DNA of 64,000 bases, taken from positions 1-64,000 of the forward strand of contig NZ_AWFA01000003.1 of assembly GCF_000682675.1 (NCBI RefSeq). Reading direction: 5' to 3'. The position numbers were made by a program, and so were the translations under genes. Under the pieces are notes generated by a model, which was not told where the DNA came from, searched no databases, and worked only from the letters and a program-made list of their open reading frames with translations. Shown here in pieces: positions 1 through 10,181 of this stretch (position 1 is the first letter of the stretch; every line of letters starts with the position of its first letter). The stretch is from Hyphomonas pacifica. GTDB taxonomy: Bacteria; Pseudomonadota; Alphaproteobacteria; Caulobacterales; Hyphomonadaceae.

Positions 1-31
1 GTCAGCGGTTCGAGCCCGTTACCGCCCACCA
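1..31 (+). tRNA. 3' end of a tRNA gene (partial)
   Basis: The T arm can be folded: AGCGG (4-8) pairs with CCGTT (16-20) around the loop TTCGAGC. The 3' acceptor strand ACCGCCC (21-27), discriminator A (28) and an encoded CCA (29-31) follow. The missing 5' acceptor strand would read GGGCGGT, which would suit a valine-type tRNA, but the anticodon lies outside the window so identity is not assigned. Confidence 0.85.
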
Positions 32-67
32 CTTAACCCGAACATCTATCCGGCATTTCCCGATTCT

Positions 68-83
68 GGCGATTCTGATCGCC
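68..83 (+). other. Small hairpin downstream of the tRNA
   Basis: GGCGAT (68-73) and ATCGCC (78-83) form a 6-bp stem with a 4-nt loop 37 bases after the tRNA CCA end. A short T run follows only at 97-100, so it is a weak terminator candidate for the tRNA transcript. Confidence 0.3.
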
Positions 84-220
84 GCAAGTGTGGCTATTTT
101 GCCAGATTTGGGGGGAAATCGAAAAAAAGAAATATTGGAAAATTTTCTTCCTGTTCTGGTCTCATGGGCAATGAGTCTTTGATTTATAGGGATTTGTCCT
201 TGAAAAATTTACATTATTTA

Positions 221-234
221 TGAAACCGGTTTCA
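221..234. promoter_or_regulatory. LacI/GalR-type operator palindrome upstream of the TonB receptor
   Basis: TGAAACCGGTTTCA is a perfect 14-bp palindrome with the central CG step typical of LacI/GalR-family operators. A second partial copy, CCCGGTTTCC, lies at 246-255. The site is 182 bp before the receptor start, so it could control the whole receptor-SapC-cupin-halogenase locus. No LacI-family gene is in the window, so the regulator is inferred. Apart from this site and an A/T-rich stretch around 108-220, the gap 32-415 shows no gene I can support. Confidence 0.65.
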
Positions 235-415
235 CAGTTTCCGGACCCGGTTTCCCGAAAGTGACTTTTTTATTTCGAAGCCTACTTGATAGCGCAAACA
301 TTTAATGGTGGATTGTGTCTCGGGTAGGTCGGAGTGCAGGGGCATTCCATCTAACCGAGACAAGCATTGAAGACGGGCACCCGCATCGGTAGGCCGCGTC
401 TCAGGGAGGATTGTA

Positions 416-3400
416 ATGACTGTTTCCACGGACAAGGTCCGTGCAGCTTCTGCACGGAAGAAAAAATGGGGAACGCTGCTTTGCAGCGCGTCAGCCGTAT
501 CCCTGCTTGCAGCCCTGCCAATGGCAGCGCACGCACAGGAAGCTGATGAAGATACGTTGACCCAGGAGACTGTGGTGGTGCAGGGGATCCGCGGATCTCT
601 CCAGCGCGCCATGGATATCAAGCGCGACGCAAGCGGGGTGGTGGACGCTATCTCGGCCGAAGATATCGGCAAATTCCCGGACACAAACCTGGCTGAATCG
701 CTTCAGCGTATCACGGGTGTGTCCATTGATCGGGTGAACGGGGAAGGGGCCGAAATTACTGTTCGCGGCTTTGGTCCGGGGTTCAATCTGGTCACTCTTA
801 ACGGACGCACCATGCCGACTGCAGAGGTTCGCGCGATCGGCCAAAGGGGCAATTATGGCGCCGGCGGCGACCGCGCCTTTGACTTTTCCAACCTCGCCTC
901 TGAAGGCGTTAGTAGTCTGGAAGTCTATAAAACCGGTCAAGCGGTTCTGCCGTCTGGCGGCATTGGCGCCACGGTAAATATCAAGACGAGGCGCCCTCTG
1001 AACCTTTCGGAGAATTCCCTCTCATTGGGTGCAAAGATCCTCAATGATACGAGCAATGAGAATGGTGACGATTTTACACCGGAACTTTCAGGTGTAGGTA
1101 ACTGGACTGATAAAACTGGACGCTTCGGCGTCGGGCTGTTCGCGTCTTATTCGAAACGCGACTCTGGTGCACCGACCATGCAGGTTAATGACTGGCTGGT
1201 GAATGATCCGGCAACTGCAGGTGCGTTTGAGGACAGCAGCTATGTTCGCTCTGATGGATCTACACAGATCACAAATGCACCCAAGGAAGGCCAACTTTGG
1301 GCTGTGCCTCAAGACAGCCGTTATGATTTTTCTGACATTACCCGTGAGCGGATCAACGGCCAATTGGTGTTGCAGTTCCGCCCGATCGACAGCCTTACGT
1401 TGACGGGTGACTATACGTTTGCTCAAAATGAAGCTGAAGAGCAGCGTTACGAGCAGACAAACTGGTTCGCTACACCTTTCGATCAAGTCATTTTCGACAA
1501 TGATGGCCCGGTCGCCACAGCGGTTTTCCTTCAGGAAAACAATGATGGCACGAAGGATATCGGCTTTGAACAGACTTATCGTGCAACCAAGGATACGCTC
1601 GACTCTTTCGGCTTTAATGCCGAATGGGAAATGAACAGCGATATGAGAGTTATCCTTGATGCCCATAGCTCTACTGCCGAATCTGGGGGCAACAACCCGC
1701 TAGGCCATACGGCGACCTTCGTTGCGATTGGCGCTCCGGTAAACCTTCAGCACCAAGTCGATTTCCGCAATGGATATCCCATACAGGACTTCACAATTGA
1801 CGACTCTGCCAAGGGCAACGGCAACGGCACTCTGGATGTAGGAGATCTGGCATCCCAAGTTGCTCGCAGCAGTTCCTCGGACATGAAGCATGAAGTCGAT
1901 GAGATTGACTTGCGCTGGGTCTGGGAAGTCGATGGTAGCAAGCTTGAGGTTGGCGGTAATTATCGTGACACTACGATGACCCGCAAGACACTGACGTCGC
2001 AGCAGGATCTTGGTAGCTGGGGATTCTCCAATCCACAGGATGTCGAACAGTTTGCGCCTGGTCTGCTTGAAGCTTTTTGTATGTCGTGTGTTTTTGACGA
2101 CCTGCCTGTTGGCAAAGCGGACACCGCTTTCAAGGGAGATGCGACAAAGCTCTACACAGCGCTTGTCAATGCGTATTCCCAGCCAATTGGTCCTGGTGAT
2201 GAGCCTAATGCTATCAACGAGACTCCAGGATTGGATATCGTGGAAGAAGAGATTGCATCTGTTTTTGCTCAATTCACGATGGAAGGTGAGCTGCTGAACA
2301 TGCCAGCTCGGGTGACCGGCGGCGTGCGCTACGAAGAGACCAAGGTGAATTCCACCACCGAACAGGCGGTGCCGTCGAACATATTGTGGTTCTCTGAAGA
2401 CGATTTCCTCGTTCAGCAAACGGGCGTTCTGGAAGATGTGACCGGAGAAGGTAAATATGACCACATTCTGCCAAACCTCGATTTCCAGGTAAACCTGACC
2501 GAGGATCTTCTGGGCCGTGTATCGTATAGTAAAACGATTGGCAGGGTAGGCTATACCAATCTGTTTGCATCAACCACGGCAAATGCCCCTAACCGGCCTA
2601 CCGCTCTTGGTGCCCAGACAACGGGTTCTTCTCAAAACCCGGGCCTTCTGCCGCTGGAGTCGGACAACTTTGATGTCGCTCTTGAGTGGTATTATGATGA
2701 TGCGAGTTATGCTTCCGTCACTTGGTTCAACAAGGATGTTGCGAACTTCACTGGTACAGCTGTTGTAGACCGCAACCTGTTCGGTTTGCGGGATCCATCT
2801 TCAGGTGCGCCGGGGTCTCGGTCTGGCGATGCTCTCAACATAATTGCTGATGTTGGTGTCGATGAATCCGCACCGAACCTGTTTGCTCTTGTTGCCCTTA
2901 TTGACAAGAATAATGGTGACCTAGCAGCTGCGCAGGCAGAGTTTGAGGCGGCACTTGTAAATGGGGCCTTGCCACAATCTTATGTTGACCAGTTGAATGC
3001 CACTTACGACATCGTTGCGGATGCGAACGACCCGCTTCTGACATTTGCGGTCGAGCAGCCGATCAACAACCGTGAGGCCAATATACGCGGTTGGGAATTT
3101 GCTCTGCAGCACTTCTTCGGCGATAGTGGTTTTGGCTTTGCTGCAAACTACACGGTTGTTGAAGGGGATGTGGACCTTGACCCGGGTTCCAATCCCAACG
3201 TCAACCAGTTTGCCTTGGTCGGTCTTTCCGATACTGCCAACTTCACAGCAATTTATGAGAAGTACGGTTTCTCTGCCCGTCTGGCTTATAACTGGCGTGA
3301 CACTTTCCTCGCGGCTGTGAACCAAACAGGCGACCGGTCCGGTGTTTATGTTGAAGACTATGGTCAGTTTGATCTGAACGTCAGCTATGACATCAACGAA

Positions 3401-3535
3401 AGGACATCTGTATCCTTCGAGGGCATCAACCTGACCGGTGAAGATCAGCGGACCTATCACCGTGTGCCGGAGCAATTCTACTACGCCTACGAACTGTCGC
3501 CGCGTTACCTTCTGGGCGTGCGCTACAAGTTCTAA
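416..3535 (+). CDS. TonB-dependent outer-membrane receptor
   Basis: A 1039-residue TonB-dependent receptor, an outer-membrane barrel that imports a ligand with energy from TonB-ExbBD. A signal peptide ends near residue 40 (AHA/QE). A TonB-box-like stretch ETVVVQG (about 51-57) precedes a plug domain with the GKFPDTNLAESLQRITGVSI-type block of the Caulobacter/sphingomonad receptor family. The barrel ends in an aromatic residue (YKF). The start is supported by AGGGAGG about 7 bases upstream. The neighbours (SapC, cupin, halogenase-like genes) and the LacI-type palindrome suggest carbohydrate or glycan-linked uptake, but the ligand cannot be read from the sequence. One 60-base line (2041-2100) counts 45% GC, lower than nearby genes. 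Confidence 0.93.
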   Translation: MTVSTDKVRAASARKKKWGTLLCSASAVSLLAALPMAAHAQEADEDTLTQETVVVQGIRGSLQRAMDIKRDASGVVDAISAEDIGKFPDTNLAESLQRITGVSIDRVNGEGAEITVRGFGPGFNLVTLNGRTMPTAEVRAIGQRGNYGAGGDRAFDFSNLASEGVSSLEVYKTGQAVLPSGGIGATVNIKTRRPLNLSENSLSLGAKILNDTSNENGDDFTPELSGVGNWTDKTGRFGVGLFASYSKRDSGAPTMQVNDWLVNDPATAGAFEDSSYVRSDGSTQITNAPKEGQLWAVPQDSRYDFSDITRERINGQLVLQFRPIDSLTLTGDYTFAQNEAEEQRYEQTNWFATPFDQVIFDNDGPVATAVFLQENNDGTKDIGFEQTYRATKDTLDSFGFNAEWEMNSDMRVILDAHSSTAESGGNNPLGHTATFVAIGAPVNLQHQVDFRNGYPIQDFTIDDSAKGNGNGTLDVGDLASQVARSSSSDMKHEVDEIDLRWVWEVDGSKLEVGGNYRDTTMTRKTLTSQQDLGSWGFSNPQDVEQFAPGLLEAFCMSCVFDDLPVGKADTAFKGDATKLYTALVNAYSQPIGPGDEPNAINETPGLDIVEEEIASVFAQFTMEGELLNMPARVTGGVRYEETKVNSTTEQAVPSNILWFSEDDFLVQQTGVLEDVTGEGKYDHILPNLDFQVNLTEDLLGRVSYSKTIGRVGYTNLFASTTANAPNRPTALGAQTTGSSQNPGLLPLESDNFDVALEWYYDDASYASVTWFNKDVANFTGTAVVDRNLFGLRDPSSGAPGSRSGDALNIIADVGVDESAPNLFALVALIDKNNGDLAAAQAEFEAALVNGALPQSYVDQLNATYDIVADANDPLLTFAVEQPINNREANIRGWEFALQHFFGDSGFGFAANYTVVEGDVDLDPGSNPNVNQFALVGLSDTANFTAIYEKYGFSARLAYNWRDTFLAAVNQTGDRSGVYVEDYGQFDLNVSYDINERTSVSFEGINLTGEDQRTYHRVPEQFYYAYELSPRYLLGVRYKF

Positions 3536-3571
3536 GGCCGGGCCAACTTGTAGGTAATATCACTATTGCGA

Positions 3572-3599
3572 AAGGCCGCTGGAGACAGCGGCCTTTTTT
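3572..3599 (+). terminator. Rho-independent terminator after the TonB receptor
   Basis: AAGGCCGCT (3572-3580) pairs with AGCGGCCTT (3587-3595) around a 6-nt loop and runs into a T tract ending at 3599. It separates the receptor transcript from sapC, so downstream genes may be expressed less or from their own promoter. Confidence 0.88.
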
Positions 3600-3709
3600 G
3601 CCCCTGTTGAGTGCCACGCGGCTTTATTCCATGATGTATAGGAAATGCTGCTGTGGGCTGGCTATGGTGCCGGGGCGCTCACAGGTTTTCCCATACTGAA
3701 AGGCACAAC

Positions 3710-4444
3710 ATGTCGAATATGGCACTCCTGAATAATATCGATCATTCGGATTTGAAGATCATACGTAAATATGGCGCCGAGTTTGGCGACAGCGTGAACC
3801 AGTCCGTTGCCTTCCCGACCGAATTTGCTGAGCTGCAGCGCATCTATCCGATCCTGTTCCGCAAGGATGAGAAAGGCGAGTTTCAATCCGTTGTCCTGCT
3901 TGGCCTGGACAAGGGCGAGAATTTGTTTCTTGATGGGGACCAGTGGCAGGCGCGCTATGTGCCGGCGCTGCATGAGCGTGGGCCTTTCAAGATCGGCTTC
4001 CAGAACCAGGAGGTTGACGGTGAGGTGCACCGCGAGCCCGTCATACATGTCGATCTGGACAGTTCCCGCATCAGTCGGGAAGAGGGGGCGCCGCTGTTCT
4101 TGCCACAGGGCGGCAATGCGCCTTATCTGCAGCATGTCACCCATGTGCTGCGCGTTATCAATGTCGGCATGGACATGATGACGCCGATGTTTGAAGCCTT
4201 TCAGCAGGCAGAGCTGATGGAGCCGGTGTCCCTGGAAGTGAAGCTGGATGAGGCGACCACATATCAGGTGCCGGATGTCTATACGATCAGTGAAGAGAAG
4301 TTGGCGGCGTTGAGCGGGGAGGTGCTGGAGCGTCTGCACAAGGGCGGCTTTCTGCGCGCGGCCTATCTGGTGCTGGCCTCGCTCAGCAATATCAACACCC
4401 TGATCGAGATGAAGAACGCCAAGCGTATGGCGGCGGCCAGCTGA
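3710..4444 (+). CDS. SapC family protein
   Basis: The 244-residue protein matches the SapC family (named after an S-layer-associated Campylobacter locus; biochemical role unknown). The family pattern is visible in the N-terminal segment with FPTEFAELQRIYPILFRK and a following Gly/Asp-rich region. It has no signal peptide or membrane span, so it is probably cytoplasmic. I chose ATG 3710 over the upstream in-frame start at 3653, because the 19 extra residues are atypical and AAAGG lies 7 bases before 3710. It lies 23 bases before the cupin gene, in the conserved order receptor-SapC-cupin-halogenase known from Caulobacterales and Xanthomonas-type uptake loci. Confidence 0.85.
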   Translation: MSNMALLNNIDHSDLKIIRKYGAEFGDSVNQSVAFPTEFAELQRIYPILFRKDEKGEFQSVVLLGLDKGENLFLDGDQWQARYVPALHERGPFKIGFQNQEVDGEVHREPVIHVDLDSSRISREEGAPLFLPQGGNAPYLQHVTHVLRVINVGMDMMTPMFEAFQQAELMEPVSLEVKLDEATTYQVPDVYTISEEKLAALSGEVLERLHKGGFLRAAYLVLASLSNINTLIEMKNAKRMAAAS

Positions 4445-4467
4445 GCCATGAGAGGATAAGGCCGGTC

Positions 4468-5499
4468 ATGCTGAACATTGAGCGCAAGACACGTATCATG
4501 CAGGGCGTCGCGCCGGATGCCATTCCCTATGATGCGCTGATGCGGGATCAGGAGCCGGTCATTCTTAAAGGCCTGGCCAGTGACTGGCCGCTGGTACAGG
4601 CTGGGCAGGAGGGCCCGGAGGCGGCGATGCAATATCTGCTGCGTTTCTATCAGGGACGTCCGGTTGTCGGCTATACGGCCGCGCCGGAGATTGGCGGGCG
4701 CTATTTCTATACAGACGACATGCGCGGCCTGAACTTCCAGCGCAGCCGCGTGGCGATGGATGAATATCTTGATACCATCCGTGCACATCTGGGACAGGCG
4801 AATGCACCGTCCTATTATATCGGATCAACCGATCTGGACATTTACCTGCCGGGCCTGCGCAGCGAGAATGATCTTGTGCTGAACAATCCGATGTTCGAGG
4901 CGAACACACCGATTGTCAGTATCTGGATGGGCAATCACACGATTGCGTCTGCGCATTATGACATGTCCAACAATCTGGCTTGCTGCATGGTGGGCAAGCG
5001 ACGCTTCACGCTGTTCCCGCCGGATCAGATTGCCAATCTCTACCCCGGCCCGCTGGAGCCAACGCCAGGCGGACAGGTCGTCAGTATGGTGGATTTCCGT
5101 GACCCCGATCATGAGCGTTACCCGCGCTTCCGCGACGCATTGAAGACCGCGCAGGTAGCGGAGCTGGAGCCCGGCGATGTGCTGTTCTATCCGGCTCTAT
5201 GGTGGCACCATGTTGAGGGGGTTGGCGAGTTCAACGCCATGATCAATTATTGGTGGAATACAAGCCCGGCCTTCATGGATACCCCCCAGAATACGCTGTT
5301 GCATGGCCTGCTCAGTTTGCGGGACCGTCCGGGGCCGGAGAAACAGGCCTGGAAGGCGCTGTTTGATTATTATATTTTCGGTCCGGCCGAATTGCCGGCA
5401 GAGCATTTGCCCGAAGCGGCGCAGGGTAATCTGGGGCCGATGGATGAAATGAAGGCTCGCCGTTTGCGGGCCATGTTGCTGCAAAAGCTGAATCGTTAA
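4468..5499 (+). CDS. Cupin-like (JmjC-type) oxygenase family protein
   Basis: A 343-residue cupin_8/JmjC-like protein. The probable iron-binding motif HYD is at 163-165, followed by KRRFTLFPP typical of this fold. The distal histidine lies in ALWWHHVEG (247-248), after the cupin motif PGDVLFYP. These are the residues expected of a non-haem Fe(II)/2-oxoglutarate hydroxylase. The family includes protein and small-molecule hydroxylases; the substrate here is unknown. It sits between sapC (23-base gap) and the halogenase-like gene (29-base gap) and is likely co-transcribed. Confidence 0.82.
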   Translation: MLNIERKTRIMQGVAPDAIPYDALMRDQEPVILKGLASDWPLVQAGQEGPEAAMQYLLRFYQGRPVVGYTAAPEIGGRYFYTDDMRGLNFQRSRVAMDEYLDTIRAHLGQANAPSYYIGSTDLDIYLPGLRSENDLVLNNPMFEANTPIVSIWMGNHTIASAHYDMSNNLACCMVGKRRFTLFPPDQIANLYPGPLEPTPGGQVVSMVDFRDPDHERYPRFRDALKTAQVAELEPGDVLFYPALWWHHVEGVGEFNAMINYWWNTSPAFMDTPQNTLLHGLLSLRDRPGPEKQAWKALFDYYIFGPAELPAEHLPEAAQGNLGPMDEMKARRLRAMLLQKLNR

Positions 5500-5528
5500 G
5501 AGACAAAGACCGGGAGGGTCATCAGGAG

Positions 5529-7019
5529 ATGCAGAAAGTCAGGAAAGTCGTCATCGCGGGCGGTGGCACAGCAGGCTGGATCACGGCAGCGGCCCTGTCG
5601 CGCATGCTGGGTCCGCTATTGGATATCACGCTGGTGGAATCCGATGACATCGGAACAGTCGGTGTAGGAGAGGCCACGATCCCAACACATCGCACCTTTC
5701 ATCATCTGCTGGGTATTGATGAGCGTGAGTTCATGCGCGCCACCAAGGCAACCTTCAAGCTGGGCATCGCCTTCGAGAATTGGGGCGGGATTGGCGACAC
5801 TTACATCCACTCTTTCGGGCAGGTTGGCAAATCGAGCTGGATGGGTGAGTTTTACAATATCTGGCTGGCTGCGCGCGAGAAGGGTATTGGCGAGGATCTG
5901 GACGCTTATTGCTTCGAATTGCAGGCTGCCAAGCACAACAAGTTTTACACGGACGAAAAGTTCAACATCAATTACGCCTACCATCTGGATGCTAGCCTCT
6001 ATGCCAAATTCCTTCGCGCCTTCTCGGAAGAGAAGGGTGTGAAGCGGGTTGAAGGCCTGATTGGCGGGGTGGAGCAGGATGGCGAAACCGGCTTCATTAC
6101 GGCGCTGAAGCTGAAGTCCGGTGATCGGATTGAAGGCGATTTCTTCGTTGATTGCACGGGCTTTCGGGGTCTTTTGATTGAGCAGACACTGAAAAGCGGC
6201 TTCGAGGATTGGGCCCATTGGTTGCCAACAGACAGTGCCCTGGCGGTTCAGACGCGGTCTGTGGGTCCGGCGCTGCCCTATACGCGCTCCATTGCGCATC
6301 AATCCGGCTGGCAGTGGCGCATACCGTTACAGCATAGGGTTGGCAATGGCCTCGTCTTCTGTAGCCAGTATATGCAGCCGGATGCGGCAGAGGAGATTTT
6401 ACGCAATAATATTGAAGGCGAGCTTTTGGGAGAGCCGCGCCTGATCCGGTACAAGACAGGCCGTCGGCGCAAGGTGTGGAACAAAAACTGCGTGGCGCTT
6501 GGACTTTCGAGCGGCTTCCTGGAGCCACTGGAATCCACCAGCATCCATCTGATCCAGATCGGCGCGTCGCGGCTGGTTCAGCAATTCCCGTTTGATGGGG
6601 TTTCTGAAGCGATTGCCAATCACTATAATGAGCAATCCTTGCGCGAGCTGGAGCGTATCCGCGATTTCATCATCCTGCACTACAAGGTGACCGAGCGCGA
6701 TGATAGCGCGTTCTGGCGAGATCGCCGCGATATGGACGTCCCGGACTCGCTAGCCCAGCGCCTGGATGTGTTCCGTGAGAATGGCCTGGCCTATCAGGCC
6801 ACGGATGATCTGTTCCGCGTTGATTCCTGGTTGCAGGTGATGATGGGACAGCGCATGAGGCCAAAGGGCTATCATCATATGGGGCACATGATTACGGAAG
6901 ATCAGATGCGTCGGGCCCTTGGCGGGCTCAGCAGTGGCATTGCCAACACGGTGGCTAAGATGCCGACCCATCAGGACTTCATTGAACGCTACTGCGCGAT
7001 TGAGGCCGAAGCGGTCTGA
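5529..7019 (+). CDS. Tryptophan-halogenase-family flavoprotein
   Basis: A 496-residue FAD-dependent halogenase-like protein. It has the FAD motif GGGTAGW (11-17), the halogenase-diagnostic tract WQWRIP (261-266), and the lysine of TFKLGI (K77), matching the catalytic lysine of PrnA-type enzymes. FLEPLEST, bearing the conserved Glu/Ser pair, is also present. All key residues for flavin-dependent halogenation via HOCl/HOBr are kept. Members linked to TonB receptors, such as the indole-brominating BrvH of Brevundimonas, have uncertain natural substrates. No flavin reductase is nearby. It is last in the receptor locus and its stop directly abuts the stop of the convergent gene. Confidence 0.9.
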   Translation: MQKVRKVVIAGGGTAGWITAAALSRMLGPLLDITLVESDDIGTVGVGEATIPTHRTFHHLLGIDEREFMRATKATFKLGIAFENWGGIGDTYIHSFGQVGKSSWMGEFYNIWLAAREKGIGEDLDAYCFELQAAKHNKFYTDEKFNINYAYHLDASLYAKFLRAFSEEKGVKRVEGLIGGVEQDGETGFITALKLKSGDRIEGDFFVDCTGFRGLLIEQTLKSGFEDWAHWLPTDSALAVQTRSVGPALPYTRSIAHQSGWQWRIPLQHRVGNGLVFCSQYMQPDAAEEILRNNIEGELLGEPRLIRYKTGRRRKVWNKNCVALGLSSGFLEPLESTSIHLIQIGASRLVQQFPFDGVSEAIANHYNEQSLRELERIRDFIILHYKVTERDDSAFWRDRRDMDVPDSLAQRLDVFRENGLAYQATDDLFRVDSWLQVMMGQRMRPKGYHHMGHMITEDQMRRALGGLSSGIANTVAKMPTHQDFIERYCAIEAEAV

Positions 7020-8300
7020 TCAGGCTTTCGGCTGCACGTTCAGGCCTGCCAGCATCTGATCGACAATGTTCTGGGAATGTACAACTACGTTCGAGACCAG
7101 TTCGTGGGAAAAGCTGGCACCACCAAACCATGTTTGTTGCTGGCCCTGAACGCGGCGCAAGACAGCGAACAGGCCGCCGCGAACGGCCTCAGCCTTGTAT
7201 TGCGGGAAGTATTGCCAGCATTTCTGCTGGATCACGCTTTCAATATGGAAGCCATGAAAGTCTGCTTCAGCCTGCAGGATTTCGCGCAATTCTGACGGTT
7301 CCAGATCCTTGGAGAATTGCCCGGTGACATAGAGCTTGCCGCCAAGTTCTGCGCTTTCGCCTTCGCGCCGTCCTCCCAGAATGGCGCCGCGCAGAGAACT
7401 GTCGCGGCTGGCACGGGAAAAGCCGATCACCTGATACCCCTCAAACCAGTCCGGTGAAGAGAAGAGGGTGGTGGTGTAAGTCTGCCATTCGATTGCATCC
7501 TTCAGGAAGGATTCATCTTCGCTGAGCTGGCTGAACGCGGAAAAGGCCTGCATCGGCACGGTGGAGAGCACGGCGTCAAATTCCTCGCTGGTGCCCCCTG
7601 CGAAGATGACCGGGCGCGGGCCGGATCGGTCGAGAGACAGGACGGGGCTGGAGGTGCGCACGTTCAGGTCTTCAGAGAAGCGCCGCCAGAACTCGCTCCA
7701 GCCCTCATCGGGCATGTGCAACTGGTTCAGAACGCCAGAGAGAATGAAGTCCAGATCGCACCATTGCACGGTCTGGCCGATGGTGGCCTCATCAATATAG
7801 CCATAGCCCTGTGTGGTCTGGATGCGGTGCATGGCCAGTTCCATTTTGGGCAGGTTCAGTTTGCGCACCCATTCCTGCGTTGTCATCGCCGCTTCGCGAC
7901 AGACATCCGGATCGGAGGGACGTTCGGCAATGGCCCGGCGCAGGCGGCGGGAGGCGTGGACGAACTTGATTGCCTGCACGGCCAGAGGGGCGCCGCTGCC
8001 GGATTTAACATAGTCCACCACCTTGCGGCCATCAAAGCGGGCTTCGCCGAGGCGTGTCAGGTGGATGCCATATTCCTTCATCCATTGTTTGACGATACGG
8101 TGGGCCCGCGTGGTGTAGCAGGTACCCAATTCATTGAGCGCATCGCCATGCAAAACGGAATAGGACTTGCCGCCAATCCGGTCTTCCGCTTCATAAACGG
8201 TTACCTCGTGGCCAGCATTTTTGATGAATCGCGCAGCCGACAGGCCCGCAGGCCCGGCGCCGATGACGGCGATCTTCCTTGGATTGTCCTGGCGGGGCAC
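7020..8300 (-). CDS. FAD-dependent oxidoreductase (amine oxidase/isomerase-like)
   Basis: A 426-residue flavoprotein with an N-terminal dinucleotide-binding motif (GAGPAGLSAARF) and the RIGGKSYS segment of the amine-oxidase/NAD-binding_8 superfamily. The block after it (ELGTCYTTRAHRIVKQWMKEYG) resembles the layout of bacterial polyenoic fatty-acid isomerases, which use FAD without net oxidation. This is a weak resemblance, and a specific reaction is not assigned. No signal peptide is seen. Its stop codon (TCA at 7020-7022) directly follows the halogenase stop. It is divergent from the kinase gene at 8478 across a 177-bp gap. Confidence 0.7.
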   Translation of the reverse strand: MPRQDNPRKIAVIGAGPAGLSAARFIKNAGHEVTVYEAEDRIGGKSYSVLHGDALNELGTCYTTRAHRIVKQWMKEYGIHLTRLGEARFDGRKVVDYVKSGSGAPLAVQAIKFVHASRRLRRAIAERPSDPDVCREAAMTTQEWVRKLNLPKMELAMHRIQTTQGYGYIDEATIGQTVQWCDLDFILSGVLNQLHMPDEGWSEFWRRFSEDLNVRTSSPVLSLDRSGPRPVIFAGGTSEEFDAVLSTVPMQAFSAFSQLSEDESFLKDAIEWQTYTTTLFSSPDWFEGYQVIGFSRASRDSSLRGAILGGRREGESAELGGKLYVTGQFSKDLEPSELREILQAEADFHGFHIESVIQQKCWQYFPQYKAEAVRGGLFAVLRRVQGQQQTWFGGASFSHELVSNVVVHSQNIVDQMLAGLNVQPKA

Positions 8301-8477
8301 GTGTCTGGGAATCCTTCCAAATCGGAATGCATGCTACAGAAGCTGCCTTGGGGGAGGCAACACCCTGTTTCCACCCATGTTTGGTTAATTGACGCGTTAA
8401 CGACAAGTTTCACCACTCATGAAAACCGCCAGTGCCGGTAAAGCGGAATTTTCACTTTACCGGCTTATAGCGGCAAT

Positions 8478-10181
8478 ATGGCTAAACCGGAAAAATCTTT
8501 CTTTTCATATCTGACGCGCAGCACTCTGCCGCGTGAGACGCCGGCTGATGCCTTGATTATGCTGCAACAGCATATCGATTTTTCAAAACATGCATTCACA
8601 ATGGCCATCATCATGACGGTCAACGTGTTCGGCGCCAGTTTCCTGGTGACGCGCTGGGTGAAGGACAGCCATATCCAGATTTGGGGCGCGATCAATCTGG
8701 CACTGGCCCTGTTGCTGATCCTGGACACGCTGTTGAAGCGCGGGCGGCCCTTGCCGAAAAAGGTGAGCGGCAGATATTTGCGCCGGTCTGAATTCCTATC
8801 CATACTGTTCGGCGGTACCTGGGGGGCGCTGCCTTTCTTTGTTGGGCATGATGAAGACCTGGCGATGATTTTGACGGGGCTGATGATTCCACCCATGGCG
8901 TCTGGCATGTCCAGCCTTCTGACGCGTGTGCCGCGTATTGTGCTGCGCTATGCATTCTCTGCGTCTATTTCGGCCTTTGTCTACTGCGCCTATACGCAAT
9001 CTCTTGCGGGCATGACAGTCTGCATAATGATGAGTTTCTTCCTTGTGGCGCTGTATCTTGGCGCGCGCAACAGTTACGATGCCTACACCTCCGATGTGCA
9101 CGCTACATTGCAGGCTGAAGAATCCAGGGACCTGCTGATCGGCGCGCTGGAAGCCAGCCACCAGGCCTTTGTCATCTTTGATGCGGATGGCGATATCATT
9201 GTCGAAAATCAGCTGTACAAGCAGATATTCGCTAAGGAACAGGATATCCTCAAGCCTATCGATACGCCGATCAAGCGGAGTGGTCTGTACTGGCAGAAAT
9301 CGGTCCAGAATATTGATGGTGTGGGTGACGTTGTTGTCTATACTGATGTTTCGCGTATCGAAGAGGCGCGCTCCGAGATCGAGCATGCGCGGAATGAAGC
9401 CGAAGCTGCCAATGAGGCGAAGACGCGCTTCCTGGGTTCTATGAGTACTGAGCTTAAAGCCCCGCTGGATGTGATCTCTGCCTGTGCTGGTGTGATCGGG
9501 TCGTCCTCAAATATTCCCTGTACTGAGGAAGAGGTGCGTGACTATGCTGACAAGATTGCCGAGCAGGCACTGATTCTGGCTTCCACGCTGGATGGCATCA
9601 TCAGCTTTACCCGTATGGATAATGAGGATTACCTGTCCCATGCGTCTGAAGTTGCTGTGGCGGATACGATTGACTCCGTTGTTCGCAAGGTCATGGATGG
9701 GCCGAACAAGCGTATCTCCGGCAATGTGAAAGTCAGTGTTCCGAAGAATCTCTGCGCCACGATGGACCAAGCGAGTTTCGAAGTGATCATTCGCAACCTT
9801 CTGAAGAACGCTCTTGAGGCGGGCTCTAGCGTGCCGGTCATCCTGAAGGCAGGCATGGTGTCGGGGGTTGGTCTGGTCGTGATGATTCGTGATCGGGGTA
9901 GGGGCATGACGCACGATGTTCTGGAAAGCGCGTTCGAGCCATTTTTCCATTCCCGCCCGGCCCACCAGAAATATGATCAGAATGCGGGCGTCGGCCTTGG
10001 CCTGAGTGTAGCCAAGTGTCTCGCGGAAGCTCAAGGGCTGCGCATTCGACTGCGCTCTGAGCCAGGCAAGGGCACAACGGCTTTCCTGACCATTCCGGAA
10101 GGCCTTGTCCGCCGCACCAATACGAATGAGCCCGTCGATGACATGCTGGACCTGCCGGGAACAGAACCTCGCACAGCGTGA
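8478..10181 (+). CDS. Membrane histidine kinase-like protein lacking the phospho-acceptor His
   Basis: A 567-residue protein: about five or six hydrophobic segments (41-60, 70-86, 108-122, 129-147, 156-173, 180-195), a PAS-like region (220-292), a linker helix, a HisKA-like region and a HATPase_c domain. ATP-binding boxes are present: N box NLLKNALEAG, G1 DRGRGMT and G2 GVGLGLSVAK. The H box reads STELKAPL in place of SHELRTPL; residue 324 (ACT codon at 9447-9449) is Thr where the phosphorylated His should be. It may be a pseudokinase, a phosphatase-only partner, or act through another kinase. No response regulator is adjacent. Confidence 0.85.
   Translation: MAKPEKSFFSYLTRSTLPRETPADALIMLQQHIDFSKHAFTMAIIMTVNVFGASFLVTRWVKDSHIQIWGAINLALALLLILDTLLKRGRPLPKKVSGRYLRRSEFLSILFGGTWGALPFFVGHDEDLAMILTGLMIPPMASGMSSLLTRVPRIVLRYAFSASISAFVYCAYTQSLAGMTVCIMMSFFLVALYLGARNSYDAYTSDVHATLQAEESRDLLIGALEASHQAFVIFDADGDIIVENQLYKQIFAKEQDILKPIDTPIKRSGLYWQKSVQNIDGVGDVVVYTDVSRIEEARSEIEHARNEAEAANEAKTRFLGSMSTELKAPLDVISACAGVIGSSSNIPCTEEEVRDYADKIAEQALILASTLDGIISFTRMDNEDYLSHASEVAVADTIDSVVRKVMDGPNKRISGNVKVSVPKNLCATMDQASFEVIIRNLLKNALEAGSSVPVILKAGMVSGVGLVVMIRDRGRGMTHDVLESAFEPFFHSRPAHQKYDQNAGVGLGLSVAKCLAEAQGLRIRLRSEPGKGTTAFLTIPEGLVRRTNTNEPVDDMLDLPGTEPRTA

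Follow-up and report, generated by a model that had tools for sequence, protein, structure and literature searches.

A TonB receptor–SapC–cupin–halogenase module of Hyphomonas pacifica appears to be attached to a LacI-type sugar-uptake regulon

Introduction

The closest described systems to the locus analyzed here are the CUT loci (carbohydrate utilization loci containing TonB-dependent receptors), in which a TonB receptor, an inner-membrane sugar transporter, a degradative enzyme and a sugar-related regulator belong to one predicted pathway; CUT systems of partial and of multipartite make-up are named there too (Blanvillain et al. 2007, PMC1790865). For Caulobacterales, LacI-family regulators, namely the three paralogues BglR1–3 as well as GluR, are predicted for beta-glucoside operons by Ravcheev et al. 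(2014, PMC4052901). The DNA stretch studied here, called the window below, is 64,000 nucleotides long and begins with base 1 of contig C3 (NZ_AWFA01000003.1) of the Hyphomonas pacifica genome (GCF_000682675.1). Its positions 221–7019 hold a LacI-type palindrome, a TonB-dependent receptor gene and three genes referred to as the trio, which encode a SapC family protein, a cupin oxygenase and a flavin-dependent halogenase.

Xcc4156 and BrvH are among the solved halogenases nearest to that of the trio. In the BrvH article, C3-bromination of indole and none of tryptophan is reported, the enzyme has room for larger substrates, and indole is doubted as its natural substrate (PMC5945002). Indoles serve as in vitro substrates of BrvH and the Xanthomonas halogenases (PMC5945002, PMC7336383), whose native substrates are stated as unknown in PMC7336383.

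Comparison with described systems

The Hyphomonas genome has the same four kinds of component as a CUT locus. The differences are that the receptor lies on another contig than the regulator, symporter and glycosidase, which are all on contig C7 and tied to it by operator and co-occurrence only, and that the receptor carries the SapC–cupin–halogenase trio; neither “halogenase” nor “SapC” occurs in the main text of PMC1790865. The system may work like a multipartite CUT system and not as one compact locus. Its likeness to the BglR1–3 and GluR regulons lies in a LacI-family regulator predicted for a beta-glucoside-type operon, and “halogenase”, “TonB” and “SapC” do not occur in the main text of PMC4052901. 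The TonB-receptor context also distinguishes the window from Xcc4156 and BrvH, as “TonB” is absent from the main texts of PMC5945002 and PMC7336383. In the open-licence literature, most searches for a halogenase or SapC together with a TonB receptor gave no paper and one gave two; in broader searches, SapC is in none of the 20 papers listed of 25, and “flavin-dependent halogenase” in none of the 12 listed of 222.

The proteins were placed by Pfam, NCBIfam and PDB searches. The operator and the four genes are as follows:

221–234, no strand assigned: predicted LacI-family operator, a perfect 14-bp palindrome TGAAACCGGTTTCA, from genome and orthologue comparison
416–3535, plus strand: TonB-dependent receptor of the TIGR01782 subfamily (657.5 bits, cut-off 310), with a signal peptide by eye and a mosaic barrel
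3710–4444, plus strand: SapC family protein (PF07277, E 2.7e-66), 244 aa from the ATG at 3710
4468–5499, plus strand: Cupin_8 (FIH/JMJD5-like) Fe(II)/2-oxoglutarate oxygenase (PF13621, E 5.7e-78), HxD at 163–165, distal His in WWHH from 245
5529–7019, plus strand: flavin-dependent halogenase of the Xcc4156/BrvH group (PF04820, E 1.7e-188), K77 and E335 invariant

The gaps between the four genes are 174, 23 and 29 bases. The listed open reading frame of SapC begins earlier, at 3653; 3710 was taken as the gene start. No solved relative of the receptor or SapC was found in the PDB sequence search. The initial annotation had described these four genes in a recurrent order, with their catalytic residues visible and in association with an uptake receptor, and all of this is borne out here and in the wider comparison below.

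The operator and the LacI regulon

The four genes are probably the outer-membrane arm of a dispersed LacI (BglR-like) regulon for beta-gluco-oligosaccharides in this Hyphomonas lineage. The palindrome, already recognized as perfect and LacI/GalR-like, is present, and its sequence TGAAACCGGTTTCA has no other exact copy in the 3.42-Mb genome. With at most two mismatches, it occurs at 25 places in the genome, versus five for the reversed control; within the window, eight matches with at most three mismatches were found versus 2.02 (sd 1.41) expected. One of the two single-mismatch sites in the genome, C7:70996, has a LacI-family gene on one side and, on the other, a divergent operon encoding an SSF symporter and a GH3 glycosidase. 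The other, TGAAACCGGTTTCC at C1:114735 (L065), precedes an NAD-glutamate dehydrogenase gene by about 66 bases and was not counted in the regulon.

The receptor was searched for in 61 genomes, the window's own included, and 18 matched at E ≤ 1e-100. Twelve Hyphomonas orthologues have readable upstream DNA, with receptor identity of 70–100% (in G002, only the first 383 residues, 76%); in G026 the upstream region is off the contig, which places it outside the 12. Seven of the 12, counting the window (G000, G016, G012, G019, G024, G025, G003), have the palindrome, exact or with one mismatch, at −191 to −195 relative to the start of the receptor gene; it is absent from the 800 bases upstream in the other five (G011, G005, G028, G031, G002). 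In G019, G024, G025 and G003, it is kept inside upstream DNA otherwise barely alignable with that of the window. G060, from another family, has a two-mismatch site at −255, and the more distant receptors of G053 and G056 have no site upstream.

Among the 61 genomes, the LacI protein encoded beside C7:70996 was found at 63–100% identity only in G000, G016, G012, G026, G025, G019, G003 and G024, and at 59% in G060. Stop codons inside the matches of G016, G012 and G026 fall just before the likely true start MAQIRDVSKLAG. In all 12 readable Hyphomonas genomes, this LacI and the receptor palindrome are either both found or both missing: seven of seven with LacI have the palindrome and none of the five without it. 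Conservation of the palindrome upstream of orthologous receptors is therefore complete in the readable Hyphomonas carriers of this LacI and missing in five of 12. The expected carbohydrate-responsive control is supported as LacI-type control, limited to the lineage with this LacI; since five genomes lack both elements, the predicted control is lineage-specific.

The order LacI–SSF–GH3 is syntenic in all nine genomes with LacI of at least 59% identity. The intergenic regions between the LacI and SSF genes have one island in common, and the site in it reads TGAAACCG[TG]TT[TAG][CT]A in eight of these and TGTAATCGTTTGTA in the ninth, G060; it is TGAAACCGTTTTCA in G000 and G012, with one change in G016. 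As in a LacI/BglR regulon, a palindromic operator with a central CG is found at the target and at the regulator's own gene, the own-gene sites being mostly imperfect. The closest solved relative of the regulon GH3 is the exo-1,3/1,4-beta-glucanase 3usz (E 1.7e-207), followed by its relative 3rrx, the beta-glucosidase 5m6g and barley beta-D-glucan exohydrolase; that of the symporter is the sodium/glucose cotransporter 2xq2 (E 2.2e-15). The best reading of the sugar control is therefore sharper than before: the locus belongs to a LacI regulon with a symporter/GH3 operon of beta-glucan type.

In the window's genome, the LacI gene (L062:7900–8964, minus strand, from the start MAQIRDVSKLAG) is directly followed by a radical SAM gene (L062:6471–7814, minus strand). 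Among the nine LacI stretches, it was matched at that place beyond the window's genome only in G016 and G012.

Several observations weigh against this reading. The 12 genomes are related, so seven versus five are not 12 independent events. The right half of the LacI–SSF site is degenerate (TGAAACCGTTTGTA or TGAAACCGGTTGTA) in G026, G025, G019, G003 and G024, two mismatches from TGAAANCGNTTTCA. The motif is generic, with 40 places in the 61 genomes (control 6), nine of them at this receptor or this LacI gene. The best NCBIfam model of the LacI protein is CytR, below the cut-off (264.9 of 436 bits), and that of the regulon GH3 is exo-beta-1,3/1,6-glucosidase, far below it (294.8 of 1330 bits); scores this low do not fix the linkage or the effector. 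A different, large GH3 stands beside the receptor or module in the five Hyphomonas genomes that lack both palindrome and LacI, G026 has both the LacI and such a xylosidase-like GH3 beside the module (67%), and neighbors of the module in other taxa belong to several glycosidase families (GH3, 8; GH2 TIM barrel, 6; GH9, 4; GH67, 1; GH1, 1; n = 122). The role proposed for the trio is drawn from family membership. The neighbor set comprises proteins of at least 350 aa from L136–L204, the closest one to either side being taken where present and L125–L135 being left out; the tally covers the 25 commonest Pfam families of each half among the matches listed, so that rarer families may be missed.

Two further elements stand upstream of the receptor:

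87–104, plus strand: AGTGTGGC-N5-TGCCA element, inverted repeat TGGC/GCCA, from an alignment read by eye
286–303, plus strand: TTGATAGCGCAAACATTT element, present in 12 of 12 aligned upstream regions

The first is kept in the seven palindrome-bearing orthologues and was not seen by eye in the five others. In the second, 17 columns are identical in all 12 regions, palindrome-bearing or not; TTGATAGCGCAAACATTT has a single exact copy in the genome and one further place with two mismatches, and it could be a promoter part or the site of another regulator. A consensus scan of positions 1–8600 gave six promoter-like sites, which is not in excess of its shuffles (4.9). At the very beginning of the window, positions 1–31 resemble the 3′ end of a tRNA gene, and similar DNA is found at the same place in G016 and partly in G012; ARAGORN detected no whole tRNA in the window.

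Neighboring glycosidases

In the six other palindrome-bearing genomes, the module adjoins amine oxidase and histidine kinase genes, which follow it in the window too. The large GH3 of the genomes without palindrome and LacI was found by Pfam in L044 and L051 and by tblastn in L045, L046, L051 and L056, at 67–87% identity to that of L044. The best NCBIfam model of the L044 enzyme is xylan 1,4-beta-xylosidase (866 of 1250 bits), and enzymes of this type share only 29–30% identity, over part of their length, with the regulon GH3. Counted by locus, xylosidase-like GH3 genes stand beside the orthologous Hyphomonas receptors in L044, L045, L046, L051, L052 and L056; a SASA-type esterase accompanies them in four of the six (L044, L045, L046, L056). 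A GH3 of the regulon kind adjoins the module in L055 (45% identity; Pfam matches include Exop_C). In the 80 SapC loci described in the next section, the regulon-kind GH3 (45–49%) occurs in the stretch of seven and the xylosidase-like GH3 (64–100%) in that of six. Since the same receptor subfamily accompanies different GH3 enzymes, the case for a beta-glucan ligand is confined to the palindrome lineage; in sister species, the subfamily may serve different sugars.

Distribution of the module and linkage of the halogenase

A contig scan of 84,980 species found 534 SapC relatives, and the best 80 of the 534, closest to the SapC of the window, were examined. By a strict rule, receptor, SapC, cupin and halogenase genes follow each other in the same order and on the same strand in 71 of the 80 loci, which span Alpha- and Gammaproteobacteria, including Caulobacter, Sphingomonas, Microbulbifer, Gilvimarinus and Pseudoxanthomonas. 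Among the nine exceptions, L165 and L178 fail only because the SapC and cupin matches abut, L155 and L168 begin at a contig end, and L183 and L195 have another order. L152, L190 and L203 have no halogenase match just downstream, L203 having one elsewhere in the stretch. L057, L059, L060 and L061 hold paralogous modules in which a single receptor is accompanied by two halogenase genes, SapC being matched in L060 and L061 only; these pairs recall the two halogenase genes of the BrvH cluster (PMC5945002).

The wider receptor family was sampled with 100 receptors, chosen mostly by E-value among the matches listed from 60 genomes of the order. The 100 leave out most of the module receptors collected before, one receptor with an internal stop and, for no stated reason, some others. 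A halogenase gene was found on either strand in the stretch (about 5.5 kb on either side, less at contig ends) of 35 receptors. In a tree with 25 module receptors added, halogenase-linked receptors concentrate in three supported clades (11 of 15, 13 of 14 and 32 of 34 rows), and two large clades are nearly without halogenase (0 of 24 and 1 of 28). L152 and L190 are the module receptors of the 34-row clade without halogenase in the stretch. This distribution indicates that halogenase linkage follows receptor lineage. A single origin of the linkage was not rejected (AU, approximately unbiased, test p 0.08), the group having been defined once the tree had been inspected and the tree having an arbitrary midpoint root.

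The mosaic receptor

The trio and following genes of the window are close to those of G016 (protein identity: SapC 97%, cupin 96%, halogenase 94%, amine oxidase 94%, kinase 92%), whereas the receptors share 76%. The difference is concentrated in the barrel (residues 185–950, 70%) versus the plug (30–175, 96%) and the end (955–1039, 88%); G016 and G012 share 94% in the barrel. DNA identity between the window and G016 falls from 0.98 near position 451 through 0.91 and 0.79 to 0.64 near 901 and is back at 0.89 near 3451. The barrel of the window is nearest to those of Aquisalinus (73%) and H. johnsonii (72%), and that of G016 shares 77–79% with most Hyphomonas; the change thus seems to have taken place in the lineage of the window. 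Exchange of the barrel by recombination is the likely and simplest reading; its edges are gradual, and fast divergence of the barrel is the alternative. As the barrel changed and the trio stayed 94–97% identical, the trio does not appear to track the ligand-facing part of the receptor. This speaks against direct action on the ligand, or would place a receptor target in conserved positions.

The terminator between receptor and trio

3571–3599, plus strand: intrinsic terminator in the receptor/SapC gap

The terminator noticed earlier after the receptor gene is corroborated: the stretch 3560–3610 folds at z = −4.49, and a hairpin followed by a T run was found, without shuffled control, between receptor and SapC in 12 of the 14 orthologous loci L042–L055, L044 and L055 being the exceptions. 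A simple consensus scan did not list this site and gave seven terminator-like sites in positions 1–8600 versus 8.6 in shuffles. Given the conserved terminator before SapC, the trio is probably made at a lower level than the receptor.

The trio

The halogenase, the one Trp_halogenase gene in the window's genome, matches PF04820 with 627.6 bits (cut-off 21) over profile positions 1–456 of 458. Flavin-dependent halogenases have a catalytic Lys and Glu and the motifs GxGxxG and WxWxIP, and all four are present. K77 (FKLG at 76), E335 (ESTSIH at 335), W261, W263, I265 and P266 (WQWRIP at 261) are invariant in 20 aligned sequences. The top solved matches are Xcc4156 (6y1w, E 7.7e-178), 9luq (7.8e-163) and BrvH (6frl, 6.8e-132); the motif residues of the Xcc4156/BrvH group are present. 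The protein is likely a bromine-adding enzyme.

The cupin matches PF13621 with 262.7 bits and contains the HxD...H metal triad (HYD at 163). Its best solved matches are FIH and JMJD5, and the HxD and distal His align with the metal site of FIH; the similarity to FIH is limited to residues 158–268 (E ~3e-21). SapC matches PF07277 with 223.7 bits over the whole profile (1–220 of 220). Its AlphaFold2 model is confident (mean pLDDT 90.5, pTM 0.84) and matched no fold at E ≤ 0.001 in PDB or BFVD, where a similarity may have been missed.

Export signals were read by eye, without a predictor; none was visible in SapC, the cupin, the halogenase or the regulon GH3. For this reason, the trio should act in the cytoplasm. 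This weakens the earlier idea that the halogenase acts on a surface or external ligand, as such a ligand would need to enter the cytoplasm. Protein side chains are weakly favored as substrate by analogy, mainly because FIH and JMJD5 are protein hydroxylases; that the target is a protein side chain rather than a sugar is a tentative possibility.

A more specific proposal, in which the trio would serve in the cytosol to mature one subfamily of TonB receptors by hydroxylating and brominating side chains while the receptor is nascent, tryptophans 350, 535 and 658 being examples, is very improbable. In module receptors, W350, W535 and W658 are present in 72 of 72 and W404 and W960 in 71 of 72, and each is rare in six non-module receptors. 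A wider set comprised 125 receptors (25 module receptors, 35 whose stretch holds a halogenase gene and 65 whose stretch does not). In it, one halogenase-linked clade mostly has Tyr in place of W960 (11 of 15), and another such clade has W350 in none of 14 and W658 in none among the counts listed; tryptophans as the targets were rejected on these grounds. Sign tests on independent pairs were far from significant for the positions listed and were underpowered (nine pairs).

Proposed mechanism and alternative explanations

In the regulon proposed here, a LacI-family repressor encoded on another contig would bind TGAAACCG-type palindromes at the receptor (221–234) and between its own gene and the symporter operon, and would release both when the sugar is present. 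The receptor would bring gluco-oligosaccharides across the outer membrane, the SGLT-like sodium symporter would move them across the inner membrane, and cleavage would follow in the cytosol by the GH3, which lacks a visible export signal. The trio with its FIH-like oxygenase, behind the conserved terminator and probably at a lower level, would covalently modify in the cytoplasm a target tied to the receptor.

It is rather unlikely that the trio modifies instead a small aromatic entering with the sugar, such as the aglycone of an algal or plant beta-glucoside freed in the cytosol by the GH3, which halogenation and hydroxylation would detoxify or recycle. The lack of visible export signals in trio and GH3, the glucosidase-type GH3 in the same predicted regulon and the preference of BrvH for indole over tryptophan, with native substrates stated as unknown (PMC5945002, PMC7336383), all fit this explanation. 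It is opposed by the trio following a receptor subfamily that is found beside different glycosidases, or beside none of the families listed.

Distinctly unlikely is a trio that forms a housekeeping or secondary-metabolite set, a mere neighbor of the receptor, expressed and acting independently of uptake. The terminator that separates it from the receptor in 12 of 14 orthologous loci would agree with this, and a barrel that diverged or was exchanged beside a trio almost identical to that of G016 means that co-adaptation is not needed. However, 71 of 80 loci, which come from several groups of proteobacteria, have the receptor ahead of SapC, cupin and halogenase, and halogenase genes are found near other clades of the same receptor family too (35 of 100 receptors sampled).

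A further reading assigns the palindrome to a different one of the four LacI regulators in the genome and takes its sharing with the symporter/GH3 operon as the coincidence of a common motif. This is improbable: the motif is generic, an exact TGAAANCGNTTTCA being found elsewhere in G005 and G011, which lack this LacI, but the receptor palindrome goes together with this LacI, for which co-occurrence was examined, in 12 of 12 readable Hyphomonas orthologues.

Significance

A recurrent halogenase module thus appears to be attached to a sugar-uptake regulon. The link to a sugar-regulated receptor would give this halogenase group concrete candidate inducing conditions, namely beta-gluco-oligosaccharides with or without bromide. 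It could also help to assign a function to the SapC family, for which the confident model found no counterpart among solved folds in these searches, and halogenation might turn out to play a part in bacterial sugar uptake. If maturation of the receptor by the trio were true, it would mean a halogenated outer-membrane transport protein under sugar control.

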